DNA of 64,000 nt from Spirochaetales bacterium (GTDB lineage Bacteria; Spirochaetota; Spirochaetia; Sphaerochaetales; Sphaerochaetaceae), in the NCBI GenBank assembly GCA_018433865.1, contig JAHDQJ010000026.1:1-64000 (forward strand), in the 5' to 3' direction. Positions within the stretch are counted from its first letter, which is position 1, and each line of letters begins with the position of its first letter. Shown here piece after piece: positions 2,548 through 46,363 of the stretch. The notes under the pieces are model-generated. The model was not told where the DNA came from and did no database searches. It worked only from the letters and a program-made list of their open reading frames with translations. The position numbers were made by a program, and so were the translations under genes.

Positions 2548-3303
2548 AAAAGTATCGCGTGACGATTGTGAAAAGATACTGATCACCTCATCCAAGTCCT
2601 CTTGTGTTTTCACACTGGGGAAGCGGTAGTGATACTTCGTTTGTACAACCTTGATCCTATACCCATTCTCCATCGCTTTCAGCTGCTCCAGCGATTCGGT
2701 CAATGAGAGCGGTGTATTGGGAAGCGTGACATATTTAAGCAAGAAATCCTTGCGGAATCCGAATATCCCGATATGTTCGAACATGGTGTGATATTCGTGA
2801 TTGCGTGGATAGGGAATCGGAGCTCGGGAGAAAAGCATCGCGTTGCCCTCGGTATCCACAACGACCTTTACCGCGTTCGGATTGTCTGCTCGTGATGTAT
2901 CGGTGATCCGATAGCTACTGGTGGTCATCACCTGCTTCTTGTCTGTGACCAGAGCGATAATCACTTCGTCGATGATTTCCGGGATGAGCAATGGTTCGTC
3001 ACCTTGGATGTTCAGCACATAGTCGCAATCGTGCTGGGCGACCACTTCTGCAATTCGGTCGCTACCCGAGATATGGTCGGCCGAGGTCATGACCACTTTC
3101 CCGCCAAAGGAGATTACCTCATCATAGACCCGCTGGTCATCGGTCGCGACCATCAGATCATCCAGGAGTGTCGACAAGGAGGCAACCTCATAGACCCTGC
3201 GGATGAGCGTCTTCCCACAGATATCACGCAACGGCTTTCCCGGCAAGCGGGTTGAGTTGTAACGGACAGGAATCACACCTAAGATGAATTTTTTCTTGCT
3301 CAT
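2530..3303 (-). CDS. kdsB: 3-deoxy-manno-octulosonate cytidylyltransferase
   Basis: 257 residues, full length for KdsB. It activates a 3-deoxy-2-ulosonic acid (KDO or a relative) with CTP to give the CMP-sugar. Family marks are clear: RYNSTRLPGKPL near residues 14-25 (nucleotide loop), NIQGDEP near 98-104 (Mg-binding), SYRITD, and FGFRKDFLLKY. Its ATG overlaps the TGA of the upstream aldolase fragment (ATGA), so the two were translationally coupled. No kdsA, kdsC or waaA is in the window, so the acceptor glycan is unknown; an unusual surface glycan is possible if this is an LPS-poor spirochaete. Confidence 0.9.
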   Translation of the reverse strand: MSKKKFILGVIPVRYNSTRLPGKPLRDICGKTLIRRVYEVASLSTLLDDLMVATDDQRVYDEVISFGGKVVMTSADHISGSDRIAEVVAQHDCDYVLNIQGDEPLLIPEIIDEVIIALVTDKKQVMTTSSYRITDTSRADNPNAVKVVVDTEGNAMLFSRAPIPYPRNHEYHTMFEHIGIFGFRKDFLLKYVTLPNTPLSLTESLEQLKAMENGYRIKVVQTKYHYRFPSVKTQEDLDEVISIFSQSSRDTFSIETQ

Positions 3304-3659
3304 GTATTCTGCATATTCTCACGGTTTTTCCACATCTGAGTCAATGCCCACATCTGTTCGATTTCCAATTGACGATTTCGCGTGAATTCGCGCGCATTGC
3401 GCGTACGGGCACCGTACCCGAACCCCAATCCTTCCAATGTGCCAAGATAATACTTCGCATTCACCGGATACATCTGACATTCGACTACTGAGCAGAATCC
3501 GATGAAATCCTGGAGCCTGCGTGCAGCTTCGGTCTCGGTCTGATACAGCTCAAACAGTTCCCGATATAATTCAGGATGAAAGTTTGCCATCACTCCGGAG
3601 AATCCGTGTGCTCCAACCTGAAGACTCTCAAGGAACGTCGCTGAGTTTGCATTGGATGC
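3300..3659 (-). pseudogene. C-terminal fragment of a DapA/NanA-family aldolase
   Basis: About 118 residues matching the last third of a dihydrodipicolinate synthase / N-acetylneuraminate lyase family protein (SATFLESL, GAHGFSGVMANFHPELY, then the helical tail). The Schiff-base lysine and the YxxxR region, which belong to the first two thirds of the barrel, are missing. In the minus-strand frame the sequence upstream of about 3659 turns into an unrelated Arg-rich string, and the opposite strand there reads as the end of another protein. A catabolic or anabolic ulosonic-acid aldolase coupled to kdsB would make sense, but the gene cannot be active as it stands. Confidence 0.7.
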
Positions 3660-3784
3660 ACATTGCCTTGTCCAGCGAATTCGAAGACGCCGAAGCGGCC
3701 TTGGCCTACCTGAAGGCACAAGGGCACATCATCTATATCCGGCTTCGGGACGGACGTTCGATCATCCGTCCTTCCGAATTCTGA
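3655..3784 (+). pseudogene. C-terminal fragment of an unidentified protein
   Basis: About 42 codons with good composition (EDAEAALAYLKAQGH then IIYIRLRDGRSIIRP) end in TGA at 3782-3784 with no start or ribosome site upstream. The segment looks like the tail of a real protein (helix followed by a beta hairpin), but I cannot name the family. It begins exactly where the aldolase homology on the other strand stops, so it marks the other side of a rearrangement or assembly junction. Confidence 0.45.
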
Positions 3785-3973
3785 TCAGCTTCCCTTGGTG
3801 ACCAAGTCACCCAACCGCCGATTGACCTGGACCGTGTTTGCGCATACCCTCTGACTCAGGATGCCTGAACGAATCACTTGCCTGTTCCATCCGGGACAGT
3901 GTTACGCAAGCATATTCGCGAAGGCGGATCAGGAAATCCTAAGAAGCACAGCATGCACAAGGAGCGTGAAAGC

Positions 3974-4549
3974 ATGGCAATCGTACGTGAGATAGAGAAG
4001 AGAAGGGCATACCGGGCCTACAGTACCGAGACCGTTGACAAGGAGACTCTTGTCAGATTGGCCGAAGCGGCCCACATGGCGCCATCGAGTGCGAACAACC
4101 AACCTTGGCGGATCGTCACGGTGGTCGACCAGAAGCAGCTCGATCGCTTGAAAGAAACGCTCTCGGGCGGCAACTACTGGGCGAAGAAAGCTCCTGCGAT
4201 CGCGGCCTTCGTGACCGATGCGCGTTGGAGCATGCGACTGGCCAACCGTGACTACGCCTTCTTCGAGCTCGGCATGGCTGCCATGGCATATCAGGTACAG
4301 GCCGTCTCAGAAGGACTTGTGGTCCACCCGATGGCAGGGTTCAATGTGGATGAGGCCAAGAACGTGCTCGGTATCGCTGAGGATATGACGCTGGAGATCC
4401 TCATGGCAGTCGGCAAGCCGGGGGACATCGAAGCGCTCAATGAGAAACACCGGGAGAGCGAGCAAGGTCCGAGACAGCGCAAGCCGCTTGACCAGATCAT
4501 GTCCTTCGATGTGTGGCACGAACGCCTGGCACCCCCTGTAAAAAGCTGA
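3974..4549 (+). CDS. nitroreductase-family FMN oxidoreductase
   Basis: 191 residues. The start at ATG 3974 is preferred over upstream ATGs because AAGGAG sits 10 bases before it and the protein then begins MAIVREIEKRRAYRAY, the usual family N-terminus. RRAYRAYS (FMN phosphate contact), MAPSSANNQPWR, GMAAMAYQVQAVSEGL and the C-terminal glycine-containing GKPGD segment are characteristic. It is expected to bind FMN as a homodimer and reduce quinones, nitro compounds or flavin with NAD(P)H. It stands alone on the plus strand, downstream of the broken-gene junction and upstream of dapB. Confidence 0.88.
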   Translation: MAIVREIEKRRAYRAYSTETVDKETLVRLAEAAHMAPSSANNQPWRIVTVVDQKQLDRLKETLSGGNYWAKKAPAIAAFVTDARWSMRLANRDYAFFELGMAAMAYQVQAVSEGLVVHPMAGFNVDEAKNVLGIAEDMTLEILMAVGKPGDIEALNEKHRESEQGPRQRKPLDQIMSFDVWHERLAPPVKS

Positions 4550-4611
4550 TCATGTTCTTTTCCCTTCCCCGGGCATCCGTTTTCCGTTAGAGTGTCGATA
4601 AGGTGGAGCAA

Positions 4612-32795: not shown

Positions 32796-34454
32796 ATGAA
32801 GAACCGAAACAAGGCAGGAAGCTTAGCCCTCCTGCTGGTGCTTCTGATGGCAATCGCATGCGTCGGATGCGACTTGGAAGGATCCGAGGAACAGACCGGT
32901 TCCTTGGAAATCACATTGGTGGACGGTCTCAATACCAGAACGATCGTTCCCGGATTGGACATGGAAGCTGCGAAGTTCCTGATCAATGGGAATCGCGAGG
33001 GATCTTCCGATTCGGTCGGACCCGTGGAGATCGCCGGAGCAACGCACACCTTCAGCGGCATCCCGGTAGGGAACTGGACGATCACCGTCGAAGCCTACAA
33101 TGAGGATGATGTCAGGATCGGAGAAGGCTCAGCCTATGTCGTGCTCACCGGGGGACCGAAAGCGGTGGCGAACGTGGTGGTGGTTCCTGTGACCGGCACA
33201 GGCAATTTCTCCTTCACGCTCGACTGGACGGGCAATGCGCTTGCTTCTCCGGTTCTCACTGCGACGCTTACTCCCGAGGACTCTTCAGAGACCGTGGGTA
33301 TTCCATCAGAAGTGATCGTAATCAGTGGCTCTACCGCTACCATCACGGTGGGGGATTTGCCGAGTGGATACTACGACTTCACCTATACCCTGAAGGATGA
33401 TGAGGAAATCTTCGCGGGAAATTTCCATGAAGTGCGCATCCTAGCTGGTCAGACTACCTCAGGTTCTGAGGATCTCCCGGTATATCCGTTCGAGGTGTCG
33501 GTGGTCATCAACATGAACAATCCGTTCCCGGTGACCATATCTTCGGATGATTTCATCCTCGAGTGTGCGACTTCCCAATCTTTTACTGTAGCCCCTGCTG
33601 ATGCCTCATCGTACCAGTGGTACCTTGATGGTGAGAAGATCGCAGGGGCGAACGAGGCTGTCTGTGAAATTGACGGCGAAGGCATGGCATTCGGCTGGCA
33701 CAACCTTTCGGTGAAGGTGAAGAAAGCAGCCGATTGGGTCTCCTCCGGAACCGTTGCCTTCTATGTGGATGATCTGGTCGGCAGGGGAGGCTGGATCGAC
33801 CTGACCTTCACCAGCAAAGACGATGCAACCGATACCATGCGCTTTGTGTTCACCAATGGTCCCGCCAATGGTCCCGATGCAGAAACAGGATTCGGGGAAA
33901 TCGCCGATTTTCCTGAGTATGAGATACCCATCCACATCGAAATGCCACTTGAGCGGGCCCATAAGATAACCCCCGCGAGTTGCATGGTTTCCTCATCGAT
34001 TCCCTTGGCCGTTGGTGCGGAATACGCATTGTCTCCCGCAGACCCCTCACATACTGGTGCATGGATGAATGTGGTGATGGCCTCCTGGAATATGGATAGC
34101 GAGACCGTTGTGCTCGGTGTACCCTATGAAGAATGTATCTTCGATGCCACGTTTATCGATGGTGAGGGGGATGAGACCCATTTTGCTTCCAGGGAGAGTT
34201 TCCACAATCCGGTGATAAATGAGGTGACTGGTGAGCGGCTATGGCCTGACGGTTGGTGGAATGCAGCAAGTCCTGGAGTCTTGATCTCCTACACACGGTA
34301 TGGAAATTCCATCGGTTCGTATGTGAAGGGCGTAGTCAATGGAACGGTCATCACGGTCGTCCCCGGTGAAGGTGATGATCCGGATGCCCAAAAATTGTAT
34401 ACGGTCGAGGGATATTTCGTCACTTCACGGGCAATCGTGAAACCGACTCCTTGA
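32796..34454 (+). CDS. large surface lipoprotein with Ig-like beta domains
   Basis: 552 residues. Lipoprotein signal: MKNRNKAGSLALLLVLLMAIACVGC with Cys-25 as lipidation site and Asp at +2. The mature protein is acidic and beta-rich. Residues ~30-110 (SLEITLVDG, FSGIPVGNWTITVEAYN) and ~140-230 (FSFTLDWTG, VGDLPSGYYDFTYTLKD) look like two related carboxypeptidase-regulatory or Ig-like repeats. Residues ~250-310 (YQWYLDGEKIAGANEAVCEID) read as an Ig-like domain. I do not recognise the C-terminal half. A ribosome site (GGGAGGATCGAAAG) precedes the ATG. Upstream of the barrel array; likely surface-exposed. Confidence 0.8.
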   Translation: MKNRNKAGSLALLLVLLMAIACVGCDLEGSEEQTGSLEITLVDGLNTRTIVPGLDMEAAKFLINGNREGSSDSVGPVEIAGATHTFSGIPVGNWTITVEAYNEDDVRIGEGSAYVVLTGGPKAVANVVVVPVTGTGNFSFTLDWTGNALASPVLTATLTPEDSSETVGIPSEVIVISGSTATITVGDLPSGYYDFTYTLKDDEEIFAGNFHEVRILAGQTTSGSEDLPVYPFEVSVVINMNNPFPVTISSDDFILECATSQSFTVAPADASSYQWYLDGEKIAGANEAVCEIDGEGMAFGWHNLSVKVKKAADWVSSGTVAFYVDDLVGRGGWIDLTFTSKDDATDTMRFVFTNGPANGPDAETGFGEIADFPEYEIPIHIEMPLERAHKITPASCMVSSSIPLAVGAEYALSPADPSHTGAWMNVVMASWNMDSETVVLGVPYEECIFDATFIDGEGDETHFASRESFHNPVINEVTGERLWPDGWWNAASPGVLISYTRYGNSIGSYVKGVVNGTVITVVPGEGDDPDAQKLYTVEGYFVTSRAIVKPTP

Positions 34455-34647: not shown

Positions 34648-36252
34648 ATGGGTGGAAAAAAGCAGTACGTCTTGGTGTGTCTCCTCCTCTTGTTCTGCCT
34701 GGTATCGCTCGAGGCCTATTCGGACCAACGATTCATTCCCTCGGATGCTGAGGTATTCTCACGCATCCAACAGCTTCATAGGATCGAGGGACGTGCAATC
34801 CCGCCTCGGGTCGGTCCATGGACGGAACGGGAATTGTTCCACGCTATGGAACGCTTGCCACGATTATCCGAGGGAAAGCTGTTCGGATCCATACAGGCAG
34901 GGTTGGCGTATCGACCCCTGTTCCCATTCAGCGGACAAGGAAGCGCGGATATCTCACCGGCATACTCTTTTGAAGCCTATCTGCATATCAATGAAGAAGA
35001 TTTCACTGAAGAACCATTGTGGCATCCTCGATGGAAAGATCGTTTGCCAATCCTCTCCATTCCCATCTCCTTTACCGTAGCCGATCATTTTTCCACTCAC
35101 GTGGAGTTCCTTGTGGTCCGCAGATTGCTCGATTATGCAAGTGGAATGCATTACGTCTATGCTCCGGAATTTTCCACGAATCACTCACTCCGGGACTTCT
35201 TCCAGCTCGATTTCAATTGGCCGTACAGTGCCATCGCGGTCGCCGGGGGGAACCAGTGGAACCTCCAGATCGGGCGCGAACGCCTGAACCTGGGACCCGG
35301 GCATACCGGGAACCTGCTTCTATCCGATCACTTGCCGTACCACGACTACATGATGTTCAAGGCATGGCTCGGACCGATCAAGTACTCGACCGCTCTAGTC
35401 GGTTTCCCATCTCCTGCGGAGACGGGTACAGGAACCGCAAAGGTAAAGGCGCTCTTCACCCATCGCTTCGACTGGACGATCCTGCCGGAGTGGCACTTCG
35501 CGATCACTGAGGCAATGATGTACCAAGATGGCGTGATCGACTTTCGATTCCTCAACCCATTGATGATCTACCACCAATATTTCATGGCGAGTGTCTCAAA
35601 CTCGTTCTTGACCGCGGAGACTTGGGTGTCGATTCTCCCCGGGTTGGCCCTTTACGGCCAAATCGGATTCGATGATGTACGATTCATCGACGAGTCCGAT
35701 TCCAAGCCGAATGCGTTGGGTTGGCAGGTAGGCATGGAATATGGGTGGGTTGACCAAAGCGGTTCATACCTCTTGTGGGCAGAGTATGTCCACACAGATC
35801 CGTACCTCTACCTTCGTGATGGCATCGACTATGTCGTTTCGTTCAAGGCCATGGAACCTGATGGTGGTGCAACCCGGTATGTCAGGGAGTATGTGGGATA
35901 TCCTCTCGGAGGAGATGCGACTGTCTACGCAGTGGGACTCGATTGGGACTCCCTGGAGAACTGGAACGGGTTCATACGGGCCGAGTATGCTGTCGACGGA
36001 GCTGTGGGTTTCGATTCTCCGTATCCTCCGGCAGATCCACAGGTAACGACTCCTACCGGTATTCCCGAGACAAGAGTCAGGGGTACCGTAGGAGCTTCCT
36101 TTCGTATAAGTGCCGGAAAGTTCGGTTTGGAAAGCTCGTCGCTGAGAGTGAACGGAAGTGTCTCCTATGTGATGATCCATAATCTCGGGAACACGACGCA
36201 TGATCCCATTCACGATGTGCAAGGTTCGTTGGGTATTGCCTATATCTTATGA
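34648..36252 (+). CDS. Wzi-like outer-membrane barrel protein 1
   Basis: 534 residues. Signal peptide MGGKKQYVLVCLLLLFCLVSLEAYS. N-terminal ~55-residue segment (SRIQQLHRIEGRAIPP, GPWTERELFHAMERL) as in all six paralogs, then a beta-barrel body. Shared marks: GRERLNLGPGHTGNLLLSDH near residue 210, FLNPLMIYH near 305, EYVHTDPYLYLRDG near 385, and a C-terminal last strand ending DVQGSLGIAYIL. This matches the capsule-assembly Wzi family (outer-membrane lectin-like barrel). It is the most divergent copy. Gene 2 follows after 22 bases. Function here unknown. Confidence 0.8.
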   Translation: MGGKKQYVLVCLLLLFCLVSLEAYSDQRFIPSDAEVFSRIQQLHRIEGRAIPPRVGPWTERELFHAMERLPRLSEGKLFGSIQAGLAYRPLFPFSGQGSADISPAYSFEAYLHINEEDFTEEPLWHPRWKDRLPILSIPISFTVADHFSTHVEFLVVRRLLDYASGMHYVYAPEFSTNHSLRDFFQLDFNWPYSAIAVAGGNQWNLQIGRERLNLGPGHTGNLLLSDHLPYHDYMMFKAWLGPIKYSTALVGFPSPAETGTGTAKVKALFTHRFDWTILPEWHFAITEAMMYQDGVIDFRFLNPLMIYHQYFMASVSNSFLTAETWVSILPGLALYGQIGFDDVRFIDESDSKPNALGWQVGMEYGWVDQSGSYLLWAEYVHTDPYLYLRDGIDYVVSFKAMEPDGGATRYVREYVGYPLGGDATVYAVGLDWDSLENWNGFIRAEYAVDGAVGFDSPYPPADPQVTTPTGIPETRVRGTVGASFRISAGKFGLESSSLRVNGSVSYVMIHNLGNTTHDPIHDVQGSLGIAYIL

Positions 36253-36274
36253 TACTGATCCAAGGAGTGTAAGT

Positions 36275-37969
36275 ATGAAACGATTCATGGTATTTCTCGG
36301 TGCATTTCTGGTGTGTTCCACGGTGATTCTCGGTGCGGTTAACCTGCAACACGTGATTCCTGTAGGTTCGGAAGTTTATTCGTTGGTACGGATGCTCTAT
36401 CTTGAGGCGGGTGCGGCTCCTCCTTCGTCCAGCGGCCCGTGGTCTGCAGCCGAGCTGCTGCATCATCTTGACAGGATACCCCAAGATCGTCTCACCCAAG
36501 AAGGCAAAGCCATCATGGAGGAGGTGCGGGCGATGGTCGAGATGCCTGATACCAAAGACAAGACGTTCCACGGCTCGATCGGTTTCGTACCGACCTTCGA
36601 GATGTATTACCATACCAATGACGTCGATTATGCACAAGAGACCGATTGGGTGTACAACTACGATTCGCGCAGACCTTTGATTGGCATTCCGATAGAGTTG
36701 TACATGACCGACCACATCTACAGCAAGGTCGACTTTGCAATCATGAAAACCAGATTCTCGAGGAACTCCTCTAGCGTCACCGATTCTTCCGAGATATTCT
36801 CCCCAAAGTTCACAATGAACCATCCCTTCTCCGAAGGGCTTAACCACATCGATCTGAATTTTCCCGAGCGGGCGGTGGTCGGTATGGGAATCGGTCGGAA
36901 CAGCCTCACCTTGGGGCGTGACGACCTCTACTGGAGTTCCGGGAAGACCGGAAGCCTGACGGTAGGGGATCATCTTGACTACTATGATTTCCTGCGATTC
37001 ACCAGTTTTCATGACAAGTTCAAGTACACTTATCTTGTCGCGGGATTCGACTCTCCCTCGTGGACAGGGGGGCAGGATTCCACTATCGACAGCAACGATG
37101 CGGTTGATGGAGACAGTGACAATGTCAAAGTGTATGTGGCCCACCGTTTCGAGTTCCGCATGTTCAAGGATCGGGTAACGATGGCGCTCACCGAAGCGAT
37201 GATGTACCAGAGTTCCACACTGGATTTCAGGTACCTGAACCCTGCGTTGTTCTACCACAACCTGTTCACCAGGAGCAATTCAAACTCGACCTTGGCCCTC
37301 GAACTCAGTGTCAACCCATTCAAGTACCTGCATGTATGGGCCAACTTTCTCGTGGATGAGTTCCCCTACCCGGGAGAAGACCAGACATCCAACAGTGCGC
37401 GGCCGACCGGGATCGGGCAGCAGTATGGCATCGAAGGGATGTATCCGATGGGTCCGGGCTTCATCACCGGGTGGTTCGAATACGTGAAGACCGATCCGTA
37501 CCTCTACCTCCGGAACCATGTGGATTATATCGTGAACCGTCGGATGTTCAACCTTGAGAGTGATATCGCGATCAAGAAAAACTTCATGGGTTATGAATTT
37601 GGCAATGACCTGATCATGGTCGCAACGGGTTTCGGATACACGATTCCCCGCTTGTTCAGTGGTACGTTGAGTGCTTCCTACATGCTCCAGGGAGAAAACT
37701 CCATGTCGACCGTTTGGGGTGAGGGCCCGACGCATGTCAACAAGACTACCCCATGGGATGACCCATTGACCGCGGCAACGGTTGAGAAGTCCCTGACAAT
37801 TTCAGCGAATGCCCAAGCTCATCCGTTCCAGGATGCCTCATCGAAGCACTTGAGGAATATCGGGGTGATGACGCAGGTCGATTATCTGAAGCATTGGAAC
37901 CGGGACAATGTAAAGGATGTCACCACTGACGATATCCAGGTTACCTTCGGAGTAAGTTGGAAGCTGTAG
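36275..37969 (+). CDS. Wzi-like outer-membrane barrel protein 2
   Basis: 564 residues. Signal peptide MKRFMVFLGAFLVCSTVILGAV; AAGGAG 7 bases before ATG 36275. N-terminal HVIPVGSEVYSLVRMLYLEA and GPWSAAELLHHLDRI. Barrel motifs LYWSSGKTGSLTVGDHLDYYD near residue 225, YLNPALFYHNL near 320, EYVKTDPYLYLRNHVDY near 405, last strand DIQVTFGVSWKL. The central motif keeps G-K-T-G but lacks the Asn seen in the others. It is probably cotranscribed with gene 1 and is followed by a stem-loop. Confidence 0.82.
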   Translation: MKRFMVFLGAFLVCSTVILGAVNLQHVIPVGSEVYSLVRMLYLEAGAAPPSSSGPWSAAELLHHLDRIPQDRLTQEGKAIMEEVRAMVEMPDTKDKTFHGSIGFVPTFEMYYHTNDVDYAQETDWVYNYDSRRPLIGIPIELYMTDHIYSKVDFAIMKTRFSRNSSSVTDSSEIFSPKFTMNHPFSEGLNHIDLNFPERAVVGMGIGRNSLTLGRDDLYWSSGKTGSLTVGDHLDYYDFLRFTSFHDKFKYTYLVAGFDSPSWTGGQDSTIDSNDAVDGDSDNVKVYVAHRFEFRMFKDRVTMALTEAMMYQSSTLDFRYLNPALFYHNLFTRSNSNSTLALELSVNPFKYLHVWANFLVDEFPYPGEDQTSNSARPTGIGQQYGIEGMYPMGPGFITGWFEYVKTDPYLYLRNHVDYIVNRRMFNLESDIAIKKNFMGYEFGNDLIMVATGFGYTIPRLFSGTLSASYMLQGENSMSTVWGEGPTHVNKTTPWDDPLTAATVEKSLTISANAQAHPFQDASSKHLRNIGVMTQVDYLKHWNRDNVKDVTTDDIQVTFGVSWKL

Positions 37970-37985
37970 CTAGCTTCGCATGTCG

Positions 37986-38011
37986 CTGCCGATCCTTTGC
38001 TGGGTCGGCAG
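37986..38011 (+). terminator. hairpin after Wzi-like gene 2
   Basis: CTGCCGATCC / GGGTCGGCAG, a 10-bp stem with one G-U pair and a TTTGCT loop, 16 bases after the stop. Confidence 0.55.
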
Positions 38012-38130
38012 TATGTTGTCCCGGGTAATTACTTTTGTGGTTTGTTCCATGAGATGCCTGCGTATCCCTCCAATTCGGAGAAAAACTACCACTCGAGTTC
38101 ATATTATTCTGTAACTCTCGCAAGGTTCAG

Positions 38131-38139
38131 TGGTATAAT
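38131..38139 (+). promoter_or_regulatory. extended -10 promoter of Wzi-like gene 3
   Basis: TGGTATAAT, a perfect -10 with the TGn extension; no good -35 at 17 bases. The same type of box precedes genes 1, 5 and 6. Confidence 0.5.
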
Positions 38140-38174
38140 CAGACAATCATTTGGCAAATTTCGGGAGGGAAATA

Positions 38175-39944
38175 ATGAAAAGACTCTTGATGGTAGCTCT
38201 TTCACTTATGTTGTGTATCTCGATGGGTTTCGCTGCGAATGTGCAGAAGATCCATCCGATCGACTCACCGGTGTACGATGCAATTACGTATCTGTATGTC
38301 AGCAATGGATTGGCGTTGCCTTCGACCGGCGGCCCCTGGAGTACCGATGAGCTGCTCAAGATGCTCGACAAGCTTGATCGCGATGCACAGGATGACGGAG
38401 CCAAGGCTGCGTATGACTATGTGGTGAGCATGCTTTCCGAAGGTGATCGTGCCGTGCAGTTCGGACTCGATGTCGCGCTCGAAGGCTATTATCATACAGA
38501 TACCACCAACTTCACCAACGAAGAGGATTGGATCCGCGGATACAATGAGCGCAAGCCTCTGATGGATATTGTGCTGGAAACATGGCCATCGAATCACTTC
38601 TACGGGTATTCCTCGCTCTATGTCGGTGGAACGAAGTTTTCCGGGTATACTGCAGCAGAGGGTCCCGTGGCCATGTTCTATGGGCAGGAACCGTTTACGA
38701 CAAATCTGTTTTTCCTTGCACCCGGATCAATCAATGAACTTGATTTCGCCATGCCATACCGCGCCTTCGGTGCATTCGGCGGTGATGGGTGGAGCGTGCA
38801 GATCGGCCGTGACCGTCTCTCCTGGGGACCCGGAGTTACCGGAAATCTGATGCTCGGTGAACATTTGAAGTACCACAATGTCGGTAGGGTCGCTGCTTAT
38901 GGGAAGAATTTCAAGTATACGTTCGTCACCTCATTCTTCCCGCACCCGTACCAATACTATCCGATTCTCGACGGTTCCAACAATTTCGATAACAGCTGGA
39001 GCCAAACCCAAGTACTGGCCGGGCTGAACATGTTCATGGCGCATCGTCTTGAGTGGCGCATGTTCCAGGACAAGGTGGGCTTGGCGCTCTCCGAGTCGAT
39101 CATGTATCAGTCGCTGGACAATACCTTGGACCTGCGGATCCTGAATCCTGCCATGATCTTCCACGATTATTACATCAGAAGCAATGCCAACTCGCTGTTG
39201 ACCCTTGAGGTGGATTACACTCCGATCAAGCATGTGAACGTCTATGGGCAGTTTGCAGTCGATGAATTCGCCTTGCCCGGCGAACCGGTCCCGGGGAAGG
39301 ATGACAACGCACTGCCGACCTCGTATGGCATGATGGCAGGAGCGAAGGCCAGCTATCCGATGGCCAATGGCATGATGTACGGATCTTTCGAGTGGGCAAA
39401 GACCGATCCGTATCTCTATCTCCGCGATGACGGCAGCTATGCACAAGATGCAGGCGAGTATGGTATCAATTATGTCGTGGCTATCCGGGAGTACTACGGA
39501 ACCGGTCGGATGCTCTATGATGAACAGTTCCTCGGGTATCAATATGGTCCTGATGCGGTGGTATTGAACGGTAATGTGGGCTATCGGGAATTCGGCAAGT
39601 GGTTTGCCGAGGGCAACATCTTCTATATGCTCCACGGAACTCACGACAAGTGGACTCGGTGGACCTCTGTGGACAACGGTGATGGAGTCGCTGATGATCA
39701 TCCTGTTTTCGTCCCAGGACCTACGGATAGCCATGAATCGGGAAACAATGGTGATGCAGATGTAAGTGACAGAAACGCTGTCAGCAAGACATTAGTCGCA
39801 GGAGTGAAGGGTGGCTACACGATCCTTCCCGGTCTTGATGTCTATGCACAAGGTGATTTCATCAGTATCAAGAATGCAGGCAATATTGATGGTACCGATA
39901 TCAGTGATGTCCAGTTGACCATTGGTGTCTCCTATTCACTCTAA
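38175..39944 (+). CDS. Wzi-like outer-membrane barrel protein 3 (type A)
   Basis: 589 residues; start after GGGAGGGAAATA. Signal peptide MKRLLMVALSLMLCISMGFAA. Type-A N-terminus: KIHPIDSPVYDAITYLYVSN, GPWSTDELLKMLDKLD. Barrel motifs: GRDRLSWGPGVTGNLMLGEH near residue 220, ILNPAMIFHDY near 320, EWAKTDPYLYLRDD near 410, QYGPDAVVLNGNVGYREFG near 450, last strand DVQLTIGVSYSL. It is closest to gene 5 (same IHPxDSPVY opening, same GPDAxVLNGNVG segment). The final Leu and alternating hydrophobic pattern fit a BAM beta-signal. Confidence 0.85.
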   Translation: MKRLLMVALSLMLCISMGFAANVQKIHPIDSPVYDAITYLYVSNGLALPSTGGPWSTDELLKMLDKLDRDAQDDGAKAAYDYVVSMLSEGDRAVQFGLDVALEGYYHTDTTNFTNEEDWIRGYNERKPLMDIVLETWPSNHFYGYSSLYVGGTKFSGYTAAEGPVAMFYGQEPFTTNLFFLAPGSINELDFAMPYRAFGAFGGDGWSVQIGRDRLSWGPGVTGNLMLGEHLKYHNVGRVAAYGKNFKYTFVTSFFPHPYQYYPILDGSNNFDNSWSQTQVLAGLNMFMAHRLEWRMFQDKVGLALSESIMYQSLDNTLDLRILNPAMIFHDYYIRSNANSLLTLEVDYTPIKHVNVYGQFAVDEFALPGEPVPGKDDNALPTSYGMMAGAKASYPMANGMMYGSFEWAKTDPYLYLRDDGSYAQDAGEYGINYVVAIREYYGTGRMLYDEQFLGYQYGPDAVVLNGNVGYREFGKWFAEGNIFYMLHGTHDKWTRWTSVDNGDGVADDHPVFVPGPTDSHESGNNGDADVSDRNAVSKTLVAGVKGGYTILPGLDVYAQGDFISIKNAGNIDGTDISDVQLTIGVSYSL

Positions 39945-39961
39945 GAGAAACAATCGTTATT

Positions 39962-39991
39962 CCGGGGGTTCCCTCTTGATGGGGGAATCCC
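39962..39991 (+). terminator. possible hairpin after Wzi-like gene 3
   Basis: GGGTTCCC and GGGAATCCC pair with one bulge around a short loop, 20 bases after the stop; no T-run until TTTTATATAG. Weak. Confidence 0.35.
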
Positions 39992-40033
39992 TATGTTTTA
40001 TATAGAGGTATGTATCGCTGAGGAGGGATATGC

Positions 40034-41731
40034 ATGCGGCGCTTTCTGATGACATTGGCGATGGTGATGATGATCGGTTCGCTCTGTGCGCAGAGGTCGC
40101 AGGAGGTGATTCCACTCTCTTCGTCTGTATACGAGGATATGGAAGTCCTGTATCTTGCTACTGGCAACGGCACGCCATCCAACGCGCAGCCATGGACGAA
40201 AGGGGAGGCCTCGCTCATCCTGTCACGCATCGATGCGTCGGACCTTTCCGCACCGCTTTATGCGTTGCATCGCTCCATCTCACAGGAGATCGAACCAGGT
40301 TTGCGGTTCATCTTCTCAGATGGATTCCAGTTCGATACTTCGATGGAGACCAATTTCGAATTCTATTGGCATGACAATACGGTCGACTATGACAAGGATA
40401 CCGAATGGATACGCGGGTTCGAGGATCGCAAGCCCTTGGTGAAGCTCAACCTTGCATTCTCACTGGAGGACTATCTCTACATCTTCACCGACTTGCAGTA
40501 TGGCAGGAACCGCTTTACCGATAGGGATAAGCCATTCATGGCAGTGGGAGGCTCCTCGGGGAAAATCGTCGGATCGATCATCGAATCGGGTGATTCGGCT
40601 GAGATTGTCGATCACTCCTGGGCCTACAGCCAGAGGTTCCTGACCAACATCATGTGGCCCACCTACGATATTGACTTCCAGACACCGAAGCGGGCGATCG
40701 CCTCGGTCGGCGGACGGCGATGGAACTTCAATCTCTCTCGTGACAAGGTGAAGTGGGGTAACGGTCATTCGGGGAACTTCATCATCGACGACCATGTCGA
40801 TTACCAGGAATTCGCCCGCTTCAATGCGTTCTCCGATCATTTCAAGTATGAGTGGCTGAACGTATTCTTCGAGACCAATCCATCGGTCGGTGAGGGGAGC
40901 AGTGCCGACGAGGAGTTCAGGATGCTCATGGCACACCGGCTGGAGTTCCGCATCCTCGACATCATCACGTTTGCGCTCTCGGAGAACATCATGTACCAGC
41001 ATGACCTGTTCAGTGCACGGTACCTCAATCCCGCGTTCATCTACCATAACCTGAATTCGCGCCAGATGTTCAATGCGATCGCGCATGCAGAGCTCGACAT
41101 AGCCTTCGCCAAGGGATTCAACGCGTATGCACAGTATGTGCTTGACCAGGCGGTCGCACCTAACGAGACGGCCTCCCAAGCCGATGCAACCGGATGGTTG
41201 GCAGGTGTGGAGCACGCCATCACGATCGGCAACGGAATCCTTTCGAGCTCGATCGAATACGCTCAGACCAGCCCTGCACTCTATCGTCGGGAGTATGTCG
41301 ATTTCCTGATGTTCCGCCGTTACCACGGGAACGGAACTTCCTTCATCAGCCACATCGACTACATCGGGTATCAGTATGGAGGCGATGCACAGGTAGTGCA
41401 GCTTGATCTGGCCTACCGTATCCCTGCAGTGGCTTGCTTTGCACTTCGTCTATTTGGGATGCGTCATGGCGAGGTCGACTGGTTCACCACCAATACAGCA
41501 GTGAATGACATCCGCGTCCCATCCCCCTCCGGGAATGCCATCGGGGAAACCGGTCTGATCTCCATGATGGCAGAACTGTCCGTTCCCGACCGTTATTTCC
41601 CGTGGGCCGATGTTGCGGTGTATGGGCAGCTGGACCTGATCGGCAAGAGGACGTATGACAAGGTCACCGACACGCACAAGGACCACAGCGGTGATGTCCA
41701 GTTGACGGTAGGGATGTCCTTTGCCCTATAA
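40034..41731 (+). CDS. Wzi-like outer-membrane barrel protein 4 (type B)
   Basis: 565 residues; GAGGAGGG precedes. Signal peptide MRRFLMTLAMVMMIGSLCAQ. Type-B N-terminus: EVIPLSSSVYEDMEVLYLATG, TPSNAQPWTKGEASLILSRID. Barrel motifs: RDKVKWGNGHSGNFIIDDHV near residue 235, YLNPAFIYHNL near 330, EYAQTSPALYRREYVDF near 415, last strand DVQLTVGMSFAL. It is nearly parallel to gene 6 throughout (EFRILDIITFALSENIMYQ, AELDIAFAKGFNAYAQYVLD occur in both). The DPYLYLR box of type A reads SPALYRR here. Confidence 0.85.
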   Translation: MRRFLMTLAMVMMIGSLCAQRSQEVIPLSSSVYEDMEVLYLATGNGTPSNAQPWTKGEASLILSRIDASDLSAPLYALHRSISQEIEPGLRFIFSDGFQFDTSMETNFEFYWHDNTVDYDKDTEWIRGFEDRKPLVKLNLAFSLEDYLYIFTDLQYGRNRFTDRDKPFMAVGGSSGKIVGSIIESGDSAEIVDHSWAYSQRFLTNIMWPTYDIDFQTPKRAIASVGGRRWNFNLSRDKVKWGNGHSGNFIIDDHVDYQEFARFNAFSDHFKYEWLNVFFETNPSVGEGSSADEEFRMLMAHRLEFRILDIITFALSENIMYQHDLFSARYLNPAFIYHNLNSRQMFNAIAHAELDIAFAKGFNAYAQYVLDQAVAPNETASQADATGWLAGVEHAITIGNGILSSSIEYAQTSPALYRREYVDFLMFRRYHGNGTSFISHIDYIGYQYGGDAQVVQLDLAYRIPAVACFALRLFGMRHGEVDWFTTNTAVNDIRVPSPSGNAIGETGLISMMAELSVPDRYFPWADVAVYGQLDLIGKRTYDKVTDTHKDHSGDVQLTVGMSFAL

Positions 41732-41815
41732 CCGTCGATTCAAAAGCAATTTGCTTTTCTTTCCTCTGTTTCTTGCTAATTATTCGAAAATGCCTCTATA
41801 CATCGACATGTCCGA

Positions 41816-41824
41816 TGGTATACT
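41816..41824 (+). promoter_or_regulatory. extended -10 promoter of Wzi-like gene 5
   Basis: TGGTATACT with the TGn extension, 34 bases before the ATG; no clear -35. Confidence 0.45.
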
Positions 41825-41858
41825 GGCTTCAGGAAACACTGTTTTTGGGAGGAATCTC

Positions 41859-43688
41859 ATGAAAAAGCCACTGCTGTTGGTCTTGGTATGGTGTGTCTGT
41901 GTCTCAAGTGGTTTTGCTGCCAATGCACAGAAGATCCATCCTGTCGACTCACCGGTGTATCATGCACTCACCCTGTTGTATATCAGCAACGGGTATGCCG
42001 TACCCTCTACCGGAGGTCCCTGGAGTACCGATGAGCTGTCCCGGATGCTTCACAAGATCGATCGGTCACGGTTATCGGAATCGGGGAAGAAGTCCTACGA
42101 CTACGTGTCCGATGCACTCGATGAAGGCGATGACTCGTTCCGTTTCGGATTGGACCTCGCACTTGAGGGATACTATCATGCCGATGAGCACAATTTCGTA
42201 CGTGAGGAAGATTGGGTACGGGGTTCTGATGAACGCAAGCCGTTGGCGGATGTGGTGCTCGAGACGTGGATCACCGATCATGCCTACGGTTATTCCTCAT
42301 TTTCCTTTGCCGGTCGGAGATTCCACGAACACGATCTGGACGAGGGATTGACCTCGGCGTACTATGGAGTGCTTCCGTTCACGACGAATCTGTTCTTCCT
42401 GTATGCGCATGGGATCGGAGATCTTGACCTTGGCATGCCCTATCGTGCGTTCGGAGCGCTTGGCGGGAAAGGATGGAGCGTTCAGGCTGGCCGCGACAGA
42501 CTTTCCTGGGGACCGGGAGTCACTGGAAACTTCATGCTCGGAGATCATCTGAAGTATCATGATACGGGAAGGGTCACCTTCTACGCAGACAAGATCAAGT
42601 ATACGATGGCAACCTCATTCTTCGCCCATCCGATACAGTACTATCCGATCATGGAGACCGATCCCCTTGATCCCGACTATGGGAAGTTCATCAATCGGAG
42701 AAGCCAGGACCAGCCGTCGGAAGGCTTGCGGATGTTCCTCGGACATCGGCTCGAATGGCGCATGTTCGCGGACAAAGTAGGATTCGCCCTCTCGGAAGCC
42801 ATCATGTACCAGACGGCGGTTGATCCGGTTACGGGGCTTCTCAAGGACACTGCGTTGGACCTGCGCGTGCTCAACCCGTCCATGATCTACCACAATCTCT
42901 ACATCCGTTCGAATGCGAATTCTTTGTTGACCCTTGAAATGGATTATTCTCCGATCAAGCATCTGAACATTTACGGACAAGTGGCCATCGATGAGTTCAC
43001 CCTTCCGGGTGAAGGGGTCGCCGGTATTGACGACAACATCCGGCCGTCCGCATATGGATTCATGGCCGGAGTGAAAACTGCTACTCCCCTGGGAACCGGT
43101 ATGCTGTATGGGTCCTTGGAAGGTGCAAAGACCGATCCCTATCTTTATCTGCGTGACAATGGCGATCGTCGGCAGGATCCGGGAGAGTTCGGCGTCAACT
43201 GGGTAGTCGCGCATCGGGAGTATGCCGGGGCATCCACGCACATGGCGCTCGCCTATGTGGAAGAGTTCATCGGGTATCAGTACGGTCCCGATGCCATCGT
43301 GCTGAACGGCAATGTAGGCTTCCGGGAATACGGGAAATGGTACGCCGAAGGGAATATCTTCTACATGTTCCACGGAACCCACGACAAGTGGACATTGTTC
43401 TCCCAGTTCGACAACGGTGATGGAGTGAATGACGACGACCCGGTGTATGTGGATGCGCCGACACCGACGAAGACACATGTGACTGGCAACAATGGTGATG
43501 TCGATGTATCTGATAGGGTTGCGGTGAGCCGAACGCTCGTGGTGGGACTCAAGGGAGGGTATGTGATCCTGCCTGGCCTGGAAATCTACGCACAAGGGGA
43601 TTTCATCCATATGGCAAATCCCGGGAACCGGGATACGCATGCGATCCAAGACATCCAGCTGAGTTTCGGTGTCTCCTGTTCCCTCTGA
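41859..43688 (+). CDS. Wzi-like outer-membrane barrel protein 5 (type A)
   Basis: 609 residues, the longest of the six. Start at ATG 41859 behind GGGAGGAATCTC; signal peptide MKKPLLLVLVWCVCVSSGFAA. Type-A N-terminus KIHPVDSPVYHALTLLYISN and GPWSTDELSRMLHKID. Motifs: GRDRLSWGPGVTGNFMLGDH, VLNPSMIYHNLYIRSNANSL, EGAKTDPYLYLRDNGDRR, QYGPDAIVLNGNVGFREYG, GTHDKWTLFSQFDNGDGV, last strand DIQLSFGVSCSL. It is extremely close to gene 3, consistent with duplication of an A-B pair. Confidence 0.85.
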   Translation: MKKPLLLVLVWCVCVSSGFAANAQKIHPVDSPVYHALTLLYISNGYAVPSTGGPWSTDELSRMLHKIDRSRLSESGKKSYDYVSDALDEGDDSFRFGLDLALEGYYHADEHNFVREEDWVRGSDERKPLADVVLETWITDHAYGYSSFSFAGRRFHEHDLDEGLTSAYYGVLPFTTNLFFLYAHGIGDLDLGMPYRAFGALGGKGWSVQAGRDRLSWGPGVTGNFMLGDHLKYHDTGRVTFYADKIKYTMATSFFAHPIQYYPIMETDPLDPDYGKFINRRSQDQPSEGLRMFLGHRLEWRMFADKVGFALSEAIMYQTAVDPVTGLLKDTALDLRVLNPSMIYHNLYIRSNANSLLTLEMDYSPIKHLNIYGQVAIDEFTLPGEGVAGIDDNIRPSAYGFMAGVKTATPLGTGMLYGSLEGAKTDPYLYLRDNGDRRQDPGEFGVNWVVAHREYAGASTHMALAYVEEFIGYQYGPDAIVLNGNVGFREYGKWYAEGNIFYMFHGTHDKWTLFSQFDNGDGVNDDDPVYVDAPTPTKTHVTGNNGDVDVSDRVAVSRTLVVGLKGGYVILPGLEIYAQGDFIHMANPGNRDTHAIQDIQLSFGVSCSL

Positions 43689-43690
43689 TA

Positions 43691-43699
43691 TGCTATAGT
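43691..43699 (+). promoter_or_regulatory. extended -10 promoter of Wzi-like gene 6
   Basis: TGCTATAGT, the same nine bases as at gene 1 (34631-34639), overlapping the end of gene 5 by a few bases. Confidence 0.5.
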
Positions 43700-43753
43700 G
43701 AAGCGATGCGAGGCCCTGTCACCCGACACGGTCTTGCGTTTCGGAGGTGAATC

Positions 43754-45466
43754 ATGAGACGTCCGATCTTGCTGTTCTGTATCCTGATGGTCGTAGGGTC
43801 CGTGTCATGGGCACGCAATGCACAGCAGGTCCTGCCGCTCTCCAGTTTCGTGTATGAATCCATGGATACGCTCTATCTGATCACAGGAAACGGGACGCCA
43901 TCCAACGCACGCCCATGGACAAAAGCTGAGGCCTCGCTCATCTTTTCGCGACTTGACAGTTCGGTACTCTCCGGTTCGGCAAGATCACTCTACCGGATTG
44001 TGGAGGAGACGATAGGCGGGCCCCTGCGATTCTCATACTCGGATGGGTTCCAGTTCGATGCCTCCGCCGATGTCAGCGGAGAACTGTATGCACACACGAA
44101 CGGAGCACGATTCAAGACCGACCGTGATTGGGTACGTGGATTCGAGGACCGCGTTCCCTTGCTTCGCTTCAACTTTTCATTCCTTCTCAAGGACTTCCTC
44201 TATATCTTCACCGATTTGCAGTACGGTCGCAACCGCTTCACCGAACGGGATACGTTCGCCACTGTCGGCAAAGGCACCTCGACACACATCGGTTCGATCC
44301 TCGACGACGAATCCCCGCACCCTGCAATGATCGTCGGCGAAGGGGATACCTCATGGGCATACAGCCAAGGCTTTCTCACCAATGTGCTCTGGCCAACCCG
44401 GGACCTGGATTTCCAGACCCCCAAGCGTGCGGTCGCTTCATTCGGTGGGGAAAATTGGAATTTCAACCTATCGCGGGACCGGATGAAATGGGGCAACGGA
44501 CACTCGGGAAACTTCATCATCGGCGATCATGTCGATTACCAGGAATATTCCCGGTTCACCGCCTATTCGGAACACTTCAAGTACGATTGGGTGAATGTGT
44601 TCTTCGAGACGAATCCGACACCGAATGAAACCGTGGCACAGGATACCGAGTTCCGGATCCTCATGGCCCATCGTCTGGAATTCCGCATTCTCGACATCAT
44701 CACGTTCGCCCTCTCTGAGAACATCATGTACCGTGGCGATGTGTACAACTTCCGATTCCTCAATCCTGCCTTCGTCTACCACAATCTGAACACGACTTCG
44801 ATGTTCAATGCGATCGCACATGCGGAGCTCGACATCGCATTTGCCAAGGGGTTCAATGCCTATGCCCAGTACGTACTCGACCAAGCGGGAGCTCCGAACG
44901 ATACCTCTGACCAGGCCGATGCATTCGGTTGGCTTGCCGGAGTGGAGCATGCCGTGTCGGCGGGACCCGGAGTCCTCTCCACATCGATTGAGTATGCACA
45001 GACCAATCCTGCGTTGTACCGGCGATACACTGCTGATTTCCTGATGTTCAGGCGCTATGCGACGAACGGGGTGGGGTTTGTCTCCCACATCGATTGGATC
45101 GGATACCAGCACGGACCCGATGCGCAAGTTGCGCAGTTGGAGTTCTCCTACCGGATACCAAAGTGGGGAAGCTTTTCCCTCACCCTTGTCGGGATGCGAC
45201 ACGGTGAGATCGATTGGCATACTCTCAATACGACGGTGAATGCAACTCGTGTTCCATCACCCTCCGGAGACAGGATCACCGAGACGGGTGTGGTCTCATT
45301 CGCCGCTGAAGTGTCCATTCCCGAAGCGGCATTCTCCTGGGCGTCCGTTTCCTGGTGGGCTCAGCTTGATCTGGTCGGAAGACAGACGTTCGTGAAGTCG
45401 AGCGGAATCAGGGAAGACAAAACCGGCGATGTGCAATTCACCACGGGCGTGATGTGCTCATTCTGA
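43754..45466 (+). CDS. Wzi-like outer-membrane barrel protein 6 (type B)
   Basis: 570 residues; GGAGGTGAATC precedes. Signal peptide MRRPILLFCILMVVGSVSWA. Type-B N-terminus QVLPLSSFVYESMDTLYLITG, TPSNARPWTKAEASLIFSRLD. Motifs: RDRMKWGNGHSGNFIIGDHV, FLNPAFVYHNL, EYAQTNPALYRRYTADF, last strand DVQFTTGVMCSF. It is the partner of gene 4. It ends the array; no terminator with a T-run is seen, only the 8-bp repeat at 45527. Confidence 0.85.
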   Translation: MRRPILLFCILMVVGSVSWARNAQQVLPLSSFVYESMDTLYLITGNGTPSNARPWTKAEASLIFSRLDSSVLSGSARSLYRIVEETIGGPLRFSYSDGFQFDASADVSGELYAHTNGARFKTDRDWVRGFEDRVPLLRFNFSFLLKDFLYIFTDLQYGRNRFTERDTFATVGKGTSTHIGSILDDESPHPAMIVGEGDTSWAYSQGFLTNVLWPTRDLDFQTPKRAVASFGGENWNFNLSRDRMKWGNGHSGNFIIGDHVDYQEYSRFTAYSEHFKYDWVNVFFETNPTPNETVAQDTEFRILMAHRLEFRILDIITFALSENIMYRGDVYNFRFLNPAFVYHNLNTTSMFNAIAHAELDIAFAKGFNAYAQYVLDQAGAPNDTSDQADAFGWLAGVEHAVSAGPGVLSTSIEYAQTNPALYRRYTADFLMFRRYATNGVGFVSHIDWIGYQHGPDAQVAQLEFSYRIPKWGSFSLTLVGMRHGEIDWHTLNTTVNATRVPSPSGDRITETGVVSFAAEVSIPEAAFSWASVSWWAQLDLVGRQTFVKSSGIREDKTGDVQFTTGVMCSF

Positions 45467-45662: not shown

Positions 45663-45699
45663 TATGCAAATCCTTAAATGAAATGTGAAAAGGAAATCC

Positions 45700-45948
45700 A
45701 TGCACGAAGAAGCTCCTGCGCTGTTCAGCCACGAATCGATCAACAAGTTTGTCTTGAAGGCTAAGGCCTTCGACCTCAGTTGGACCGAGGTGGATGAGAG
45801 AGTGATGCCCAATCCCATGAGCACACCGAAGGGCTGTCCTTTCTCCACACGATGCCCGGTCGTGATGGAGTCATACCGTACCGAGAAACCAAACTCAGGA
45901 CTGTTGGCAAGGACCCTGTGTCCGCTTGCCTCAGACTGTCGGCTATAA
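45700..45948 (+). CDS. small protein resembling an oligopeptide-transporter ATPase C-terminal domain
   Basis: 82 residues starting at ATG 45700 behind AAAAGGAAATCC. The second half, PNPMSTPKGCPFSTRCPVV then MESYRTEKP and LCPLASDC, follows the cysteine pattern of the C-terminal domain attached to oligopeptide/dipeptide ABC ATPases (PSPxxPPxGCxFHxRCPxA...). Four cysteines in two C-x5-C pairs could bind an Fe-S cluster or zinc. No ATPase precedes it. It has its own consensus promoter, so it may be a real stand-alone gene rather than a remnant. It lies 34 bases upstream of ridA. Confidence 0.55.
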   Translation: MHEEAPALFSHESINKFVLKAKAFDLSWTEVDERVMPNPMSTPKGCPFSTRCPVVMESYRTEKPNSGLLARTLCPLASDCRL

Positions 45949-45982: not shown

Positions 45983-46363
45983 ATGAAAAAGATCATCGCC
46001 ACATCACACGCACCGGCAGCGGTCGGACCCTACGCACAAGCGTACCAAGTGAATGACACCCTTTTTGTTTCCGGACAGATTCCGTTTGTCCCCGAGACGA
46101 TGCAGCTGGTCTCACCCGACGTATCGGAACAGGCGCTCCAGTCGTTGAAGAATATCAAGGCGATCGTCGATGCCGCCGGTTTCAGCATCGGTGACATCGT
46201 CAAGTGCCAGGTGTTCCTCAAGAGCATGGACGACTTCGCCGCGGTCAACACTGTCTATGCGAAGTTCTTCGGCGATCATACGCCGGCCCGCGTCGCCGTC
46301 GAAGTCTCCAGGCTGCCCAAGGATGTCAGTGTGGAGATAGACGCGATCTGCATGAAAGGGTGA
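45983..46363 (+). CDS. ridA: RidA-family enamine/imine deaminase
   Basis: 126 residues, usual length. It hydrolyses reactive 2-aminoacrylate and related enamines released by PLP enzymes; acts as a cytosolic trimer. Marks: PAAVGPYAQAYQVND (Tyr near residue 17), LFVSGQIPF, ALQSLKNIKAIVDAAG, VAVEVSRLPKDVSVEIDAI with the conserved Arg of the active site (PARVAVE). AGGAGAACATGA precedes the ATG. Its stop lies 5 bases before the start of the YheO-like pseudogene. Confidence 0.93.
   Translation: MKKIIATSHAPAAVGPYAQAYQVNDTLFVSGQIPFVPETMQLVSPDVSEQALQSLKNIKAIVDAAGFSIGDIVKCQVFLKSMDDFAAVNTVYAKFFGDHTPARVAVEVSRLPKDVSVEIDAICMKG

Follow-up and report, generated by a model that had tools for sequence, protein, structure and literature searches.

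Tandem genes for Wzi-like outer-membrane barrels from ancient and frequently adjacent subfamilies in a spirochaete genome

Six consecutive genes at positions 34648–45466 of the window (the whole 64,000-nucleotide stretch of a Spirochaetales contig analysed here) encode paralogous exported proteins that are Wzi-like outer-membrane barrels but not Wzi proper, as they score below the curated sequence cut-off for Wzi and lie outside a capsule locus. Judged by repeats and trees, the cluster includes a two-gene A-B unit that was copied in tandem long ago, and A and B are old subfamilies that form a widely shared gene pair, so that the unit is no local novelty. Wzi binds capsular polysaccharide, which its mutant releases; it is encoded with wza-wzb-wzc in the capsule locus, and previous work has treated it as a lone accessory of group 1 capsule. 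The fold is already known; its paired, multi-copy use in this bacterial family is undescribed in the searchable papers, among which those on Wzi in spirochaetes amounted to a citation of the E. coli structure, with the family itself absent. From models and sequence comparisons, we give about an even chance to the reading that, in an outer membrane lacking LPS, the six proteins bind the surface polysaccharide.

Results

All six genes are intact open reading frames on the forward strand: g1 (34648–36252, 534 residues), g2 (36275–37969, 564 residues), g3 (38175–39944, 589 residues), g4 (40034–41731, 565 residues), g5 (41859–43688, 609 residues) and g6 (43754–45466, 570 residues). They are separated by gaps of 22, 205, 89, 127 and 65 bp, and the start codons of g2, g3 and g5 were shifted to the ATG preceding the signal peptide. 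BLASTP was significant for every pair, with identities of 62.4% for g3/g5, 63.3% for g4/g6 and about 27–31% for the remaining pairs (E 1e-47 to 1e-92); the full ranges are 62–64% for g3/g5 and g4/g6 and 26–34% for the rest. Several sequence boxes show little or no variation among the six proteins. Both the run of six paralogous genes and the shared boxes had been claimed in an earlier sequence-only reading of this DNA and are borne out here. Genes g3 and g5 are the first and second copies of subfamily A and g4 and g6 those of subfamily B, while g1 and g2 represent a subfamily each, the g1 type always lying directly 5' of a g2-type gene. Comparison of A-B unit 1 (g3-g4, 38175–41731, forward strand) with unit 2 (g5-g6, 41859–45466, forward strand) revealed DNA repeats of 72–80% identity at a near-constant offset of 3684–3738 nt, with blastn similarity confined to the coding parts. 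The near-constant offset, about 3.73 kb between the two units, indicates that a two-gene unit was duplicated, in agreement with the tandem copying proposed earlier. Promoter and terminator scans gave counts near the shuffled expectation; one strong terminator-like hairpin lies 3' of g3 (39964–39992).

Directly 5' of the cluster is a gene for a predicted lipoprotein of 552 residues (32796–34454), and a RidA gene (45983–46363) lies downstream. Between g6 and the RidA gene, positions 45688–45945 hold a relic of the C-terminus of an oligopeptide ABC transporter ATPase (oligo_HPY, E 2.5e-4), consistent with past rearrangement at the cluster edge. The neighbours of the cluster in the window are IMPase, Gfo/Idh, RidA and GDPD genes, a TctA gene is also in the window, and capsule genes are absent from it, as had been stated. 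That remark was nevertheless incomplete, because the genome has a pair of genes for an OPX protein and a Wzz/kinase protein on another contig (C33; the cluster is on C15).

AlphaFold models of g3 (pLDDT 91.6, pTM 0.90) and g4 (pLDDT 90.3, pTM 0.88) consist of a signal helix, three further helices (residues 32–43, 57–64 and 74–87 in g3; 32–43, 56–63 and 73–86 in g4) and an outer-membrane barrel. In Foldseek searches of the PDB, the top match of both models was E. coli Wzi (2YNK), with E-values of 4e-15 for g3 and 1e-15 for g4 and TM-scores by target length of 0.71 and 0.69, respectively. The second-best match, AlgE, had E-values of ~1e-10 (g3) and ~1e-9 (g4), placing Wzi ahead by four to six orders of magnitude, and chitoporins, OprD-type and maltoporin structures followed further down the lists. 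The claim that these are Wzi-like outer-membrane barrels, previously made from the sequence, thus agrees with the models. DSSP assigned 20 long strand segments to each model, of which strands 14/15 are short and could be either part of the barrel wall, giving 20 strands, or a loop hairpin, giving 18. Similarity to the Pfam Wzi family (PF14052) was weak, as five of the six proteins scored 15.0–19.5 bits, the highest being g6, and g4 gave no match, against a curated cut-off of 30.1 bits. A paralog on contig C47 of the same genome exceeded this cut-off (31.5–32.1 bits), and PF14052 was matched at E<=0.01 by 42 of 58 homologs. A sequence-profile search of the PDB gave nothing up to E 10, and an NCBIfam search gave no meaningful match.

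With loops numbered from the DSSP pattern of the models, the box WGxGxTGNL lies in L3, LNPxxIxH in L5 and TDPxLYxRD in L7. Loops L3, L5, L7 and L8 are well conserved, with low mean entropies, and L2, L4 and the short turns are poorly conserved, with high ones. In its crystal structure, Wzi shows a periplasmic bundle of three helices and loops L3, L5 and L7 that fold inward, and loops L3, L6 and L7 are needed for its function (PMC3791409); the conserved segments found here include loops equivalent to the inward-folding ones. This pattern bears on the possibility that the proteins are uptake channels of Wzi-like fold, with the paralogs acting as porins for different sugars or other solutes. The rank of AlgE, chitoporins, OprD-type structures and maltoporin after Wzi is compatible with such a role, as are the retention of A and B in genomes without OPX or Wzz, an alpha-mannosidase gene directly 5' of A-B at one locus (L047) and the ABC or TctA transporter genes that flank some members, including the TctA gene of the window. 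However, the N-terminal helical plug is retained in both models, the inward-folding loops are among the best-conserved parts, as expected for a closed barrel, and the transporter neighbours are not conserved across loci, the purD site described below excepted. We regard a porin function as unlikely, though a serious alternative.

The same loops speak to the earlier suggestion of a variable surface or adhesin family, in which the paralogs would form a recombining repertoire. Loops L2 and L4 do diverge markedly, both from g3 to g5, at 48% and 46% identity, and within clades. Against this, the genome (2.91 Mb, 55 contigs, 99.9% complete) contains eight family members, g1–g6 and a divergent pair on contig C47, all of them full-length, with partial or silent copies absent. 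The best direct repeats between copies reach only 72–80% identity, so that recent gene conversion was not seen, and A, B, g1 and g2 remain recognisable as separate subfamilies in different genera, unlike shuffled repertoires. The conserved inward-folding loops, the lack of silent copies and the lack of near-identical tracts together speak against antigenic variation, and we consider this role improbable; the suggestion is not upheld. Another large predicted lipoprotein gene (2838–4556 of locus L110) was observed ~3 kb from the C47 barrel pair.

The family is present in 52 of 60 relatives (53 of 61 genomes when the genome studied here is counted), among them Sphaerochaeta, Sphaerochaetaceae and unclassified Spirochaetales MAGs; copy number among relatives ranges from 0 to 11. 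Among 120 genomes drawn from the phylum, nine others had members, and every match was weak, which suggests that close members occur mainly within the bacterial family to which the window belongs. In a tree of 148 proteins, g3 and g5 fall in the A clade (66 proteins), g4 and g6 in the B clade (~49), and g1 and g2 in two small clades. A more careful tree placed g3 as sister to a gene of another genus with which it is 76% identical (support 99/95) and g5 as sister to a gene from a further genome (100/99), these four genes forming one group (92/90); g4, g6 and one further gene were also grouped (99/99). The sequence-only view that genes 3/5 and 4/6 are closest relatives therefore holds within the genome, but in the wider tree g3 and g5 are each sister to genes of other genomes, indicating that the duplication of A is old and predates that split.

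A 3.6-kb contig of genome G032 (C39; loci L041 and L129) carries g1-g2 99% identical to those of the window; G032 belongs to another genus and has its own 68%-identical g2, so the contig is probably MAG contamination. tblastn of g2 against plasmids gave no match. Records titled Clostridiales (Firm_16) and Bacteroidetes (Bin_28) hold spirochaete-type A/B genes (L054, L091), one of them in the spirochaete A-B-purD order, and are probably mis-assigned MAG contigs. Another uncharacterised exported family with a similar N-terminal motif and without a Pfam match (L103 11567–13321; L125 12356–14392; L106–L109) adjoins distant Wzi-like genes and glycosyltransferases and is possibly a further barrel family.

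Members of the family are commonly adjacent. In the genome collection, 36 of 68 loci had adjacent members, which belonged to unlike subfamilies in 35 cases, and among loci with 2.5 kb of flank, 26 of 37 had a neighbouring member. Neighbouring A and B genes were arranged as A>B in 11 cases, as B>A in three and in opposite directions in 11, while the order and strand of g1-g2 were kept in every genome in which both were found. An obligate A and B partnership was rejected, since some genomes have A only and two single-contig genomes have A and B far apart. These data also bear on the proposal that paralogs accumulated neutrally or for dosage, A and B having no functional specialisation. The wide range of copy numbers and the A-only genomes would fit that account, but A and B have stayed distinct and often adjacent over long divergence and in several orientations, and the constancy of g1-g2 is likewise not expected from it. 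We rate neutral or dosage-driven expansion as very unlikely, marginally below antigenic variation.

A recurrent gene order, dnaJ, rlmB, (ABC genes, DUF6672), A, B, purD, dus, tatD, PSP1, rpsT, lnt, cinA, was found whole or in part in about ten genomes, some of the gene names being assigned by reading the sequences. The site 5' of purD is the probable ancestral location of A-B. In the genome studied here, rlmB runs straight into purD on contig C29 (L166 7987–10292) with no barrel gene between them, which places the window cluster at a derived position, where the A-B units are joined to the second conserved pair, g1-g2. On one reading, A-B was relocated from purD to the window; independent loss at purD would look identical.

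The OPX candidate on contig C33 has an SLBB match just above the Pfam cut-off and a Poly_export match below it. At locus L162 on the same contig (8681–12589), an uncharacterised membrane protein, a DUF6675 protein and a protein of 615 residues whose N-terminus is POTRA-like are encoded without A-B; the POTRA-like N-terminus was assigned by reading the sequence and has no Pfam match. In same-genus relatives, WbaP, GT4 and Wzi-like genes accompany this three-gene set. Family members of G001 and G002, of the same genus, are found together with genes for a WbaP-type sugar transferase, DUF6675, GT4 and the POTRA-like protein, the A-B pair of G002 being close beside these genes. At two loci of the same genus (L112, L067), a WbaP-type transferase and DUF6675 come after A-B on the same strand, and GT4 and another A are nearby. 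Distant family members also adjoin glycosyltransferases. At L090, homologs of the OPX and kinase genes of C33 lie ~7 kb upstream of A-B, with pyrimidine genes between.

Wzi-bearing organisms were reported all to have Wza (Bushell 2013, PMC3791409). Here, 12 of the 33 A/B genomes, defined by close members with a best E below 1e-100 (a threshold of our own), had no OPX (Poly_export) match at E<=0.001, one of these 12, assembled as a single contig (G023), also had no Wzz match, and A/B presence was not significantly associated with OPX presence (p = 0.13). The occurrence of A/B in genomes without detectable OPX and the lack of association count against a strict capsule role. The genomes without detectable OPX also weigh against a possible export function, in which the barrels would be outer-membrane pores for short OPX proteins, like EpsX and WzpX of Myxococcus. 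Such a function would agree with the association of the genome's own OPX with Wzz/kinase, with the finding that OPX genes of every class can have Wzi-type barrels close by (Saidi 2022, PMC9603273), with the OPX and kinase genes at L090 and with AlgE as the second-best fold. Yet EpsX lacks a helical bundle and has AlgE as its nearest fold (PMC9601211), whereas the bundle is present here and Wzi is nearest; in addition, the genome's own OPX gene is on a different contig from the cluster. An export channel therefore seems to us improbable, on a par with antigenic variation.

LpxC had no match in the genome studied and none above the cut-off in any of 12 genomes tested, so the outer membrane probably lacks LPS. 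For Klebsiella, capsule retention is reported to depend in some way on LPS O antigen (PMC9431683).

Discussion

The proteins of this cluster resemble Wzi of E. coli K30 (2YNK, PF14052) in their signal peptide, three-helix N-terminal bundle and barrel whose last strand forms the C-terminus, and among solved structures Wzi matches the fold of both A and B best. They differ from Wzi in being longer by roughly 55–130 residues, in the 20 DSSP strand segments of the models as against 18 strands, in forming six tandem copies from four subfamilies in lying outside a wza-wzc locus, in being present in relatives without detectable Wza and in belonging to a host genome without an LpxC match. AlgE, an alginate export porin, belongs to the synthase pathway and, to our knowledge, lacks an N-terminal helical plug; the surroundings of A/B yielded no synthase genes. 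FadL and Tpr/MOSP are likewise multi-copy barrel families of spirochaetes, but FadL structures ranked far lower in Foldseek (TM about 0.3) and the Pfam scan of g1–g6 found no Tpr/MOSP family. EpsX, WzpX and WzpB of Myxococcus are also outer-membrane barrels tied to polysaccharide pathways (PMC9601211, PMC9603273), and AlgE is among the nearest folds of the present proteins as well; EpsX differs in standing beside its own OPX gene.

The fold, the WbaP/GT4 loci, the glycosyltransferase neighbours, the OPX and kinase genes at L090 and the OPX and Wzz/kinase pair of the genome itself link the family to surface polysaccharide. We therefore return to the reading that g1–g6 are polysaccharide binders at the surface of an LPS-less outer membrane; the A/B genomes without detectable OPX, the lack of a significant association of A/B with OPX, the PF14052 scores below cut-off, the 20 strand segments compared with the 18 strands of Wzi and the non-obligate nature of the pair count against it. 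Each exported protein would place its three-helix N-terminal plug at the periplasmic side of the barrel, and the conserved loops would probably close the outer mouth, so that the barrels may act as surface lectins that hold polysaccharide on the cell rather than as channels. The unlike subfamilies may have stayed adjacent because each recognises a different part or type of polymer, or because they work together in one assembly, and the second A-B copy together with g1-g2 may widen the range of polymers bound. Where LPS is lacking, such barrels could be a main non-covalent anchor of the surface glycan, a larger anchoring role that we infer. In a broader form, unlike Wzi-like pairs would be the principal surface-glycan anchor of LPS-less spirochaetes, independent of Wza/Wzc, and tandem copying would diversify the glycans that are worn or held; this we offer as a speculative proposal that is more probably wrong than right by a wide measure, being less likely than a porin function and somewhat likelier than an export channel.

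Here, the Wzi fold is found as a multi-copy family of old, often paired subfamilies in a lineage in which LpxC was not found, including genomes in which no Wza-type exporter was found. If the barrels bind surface glycan, the retention of polysaccharide on an LPS-less outer membrane, and the role of the Wzi fold outside capsule loci, would become testable.
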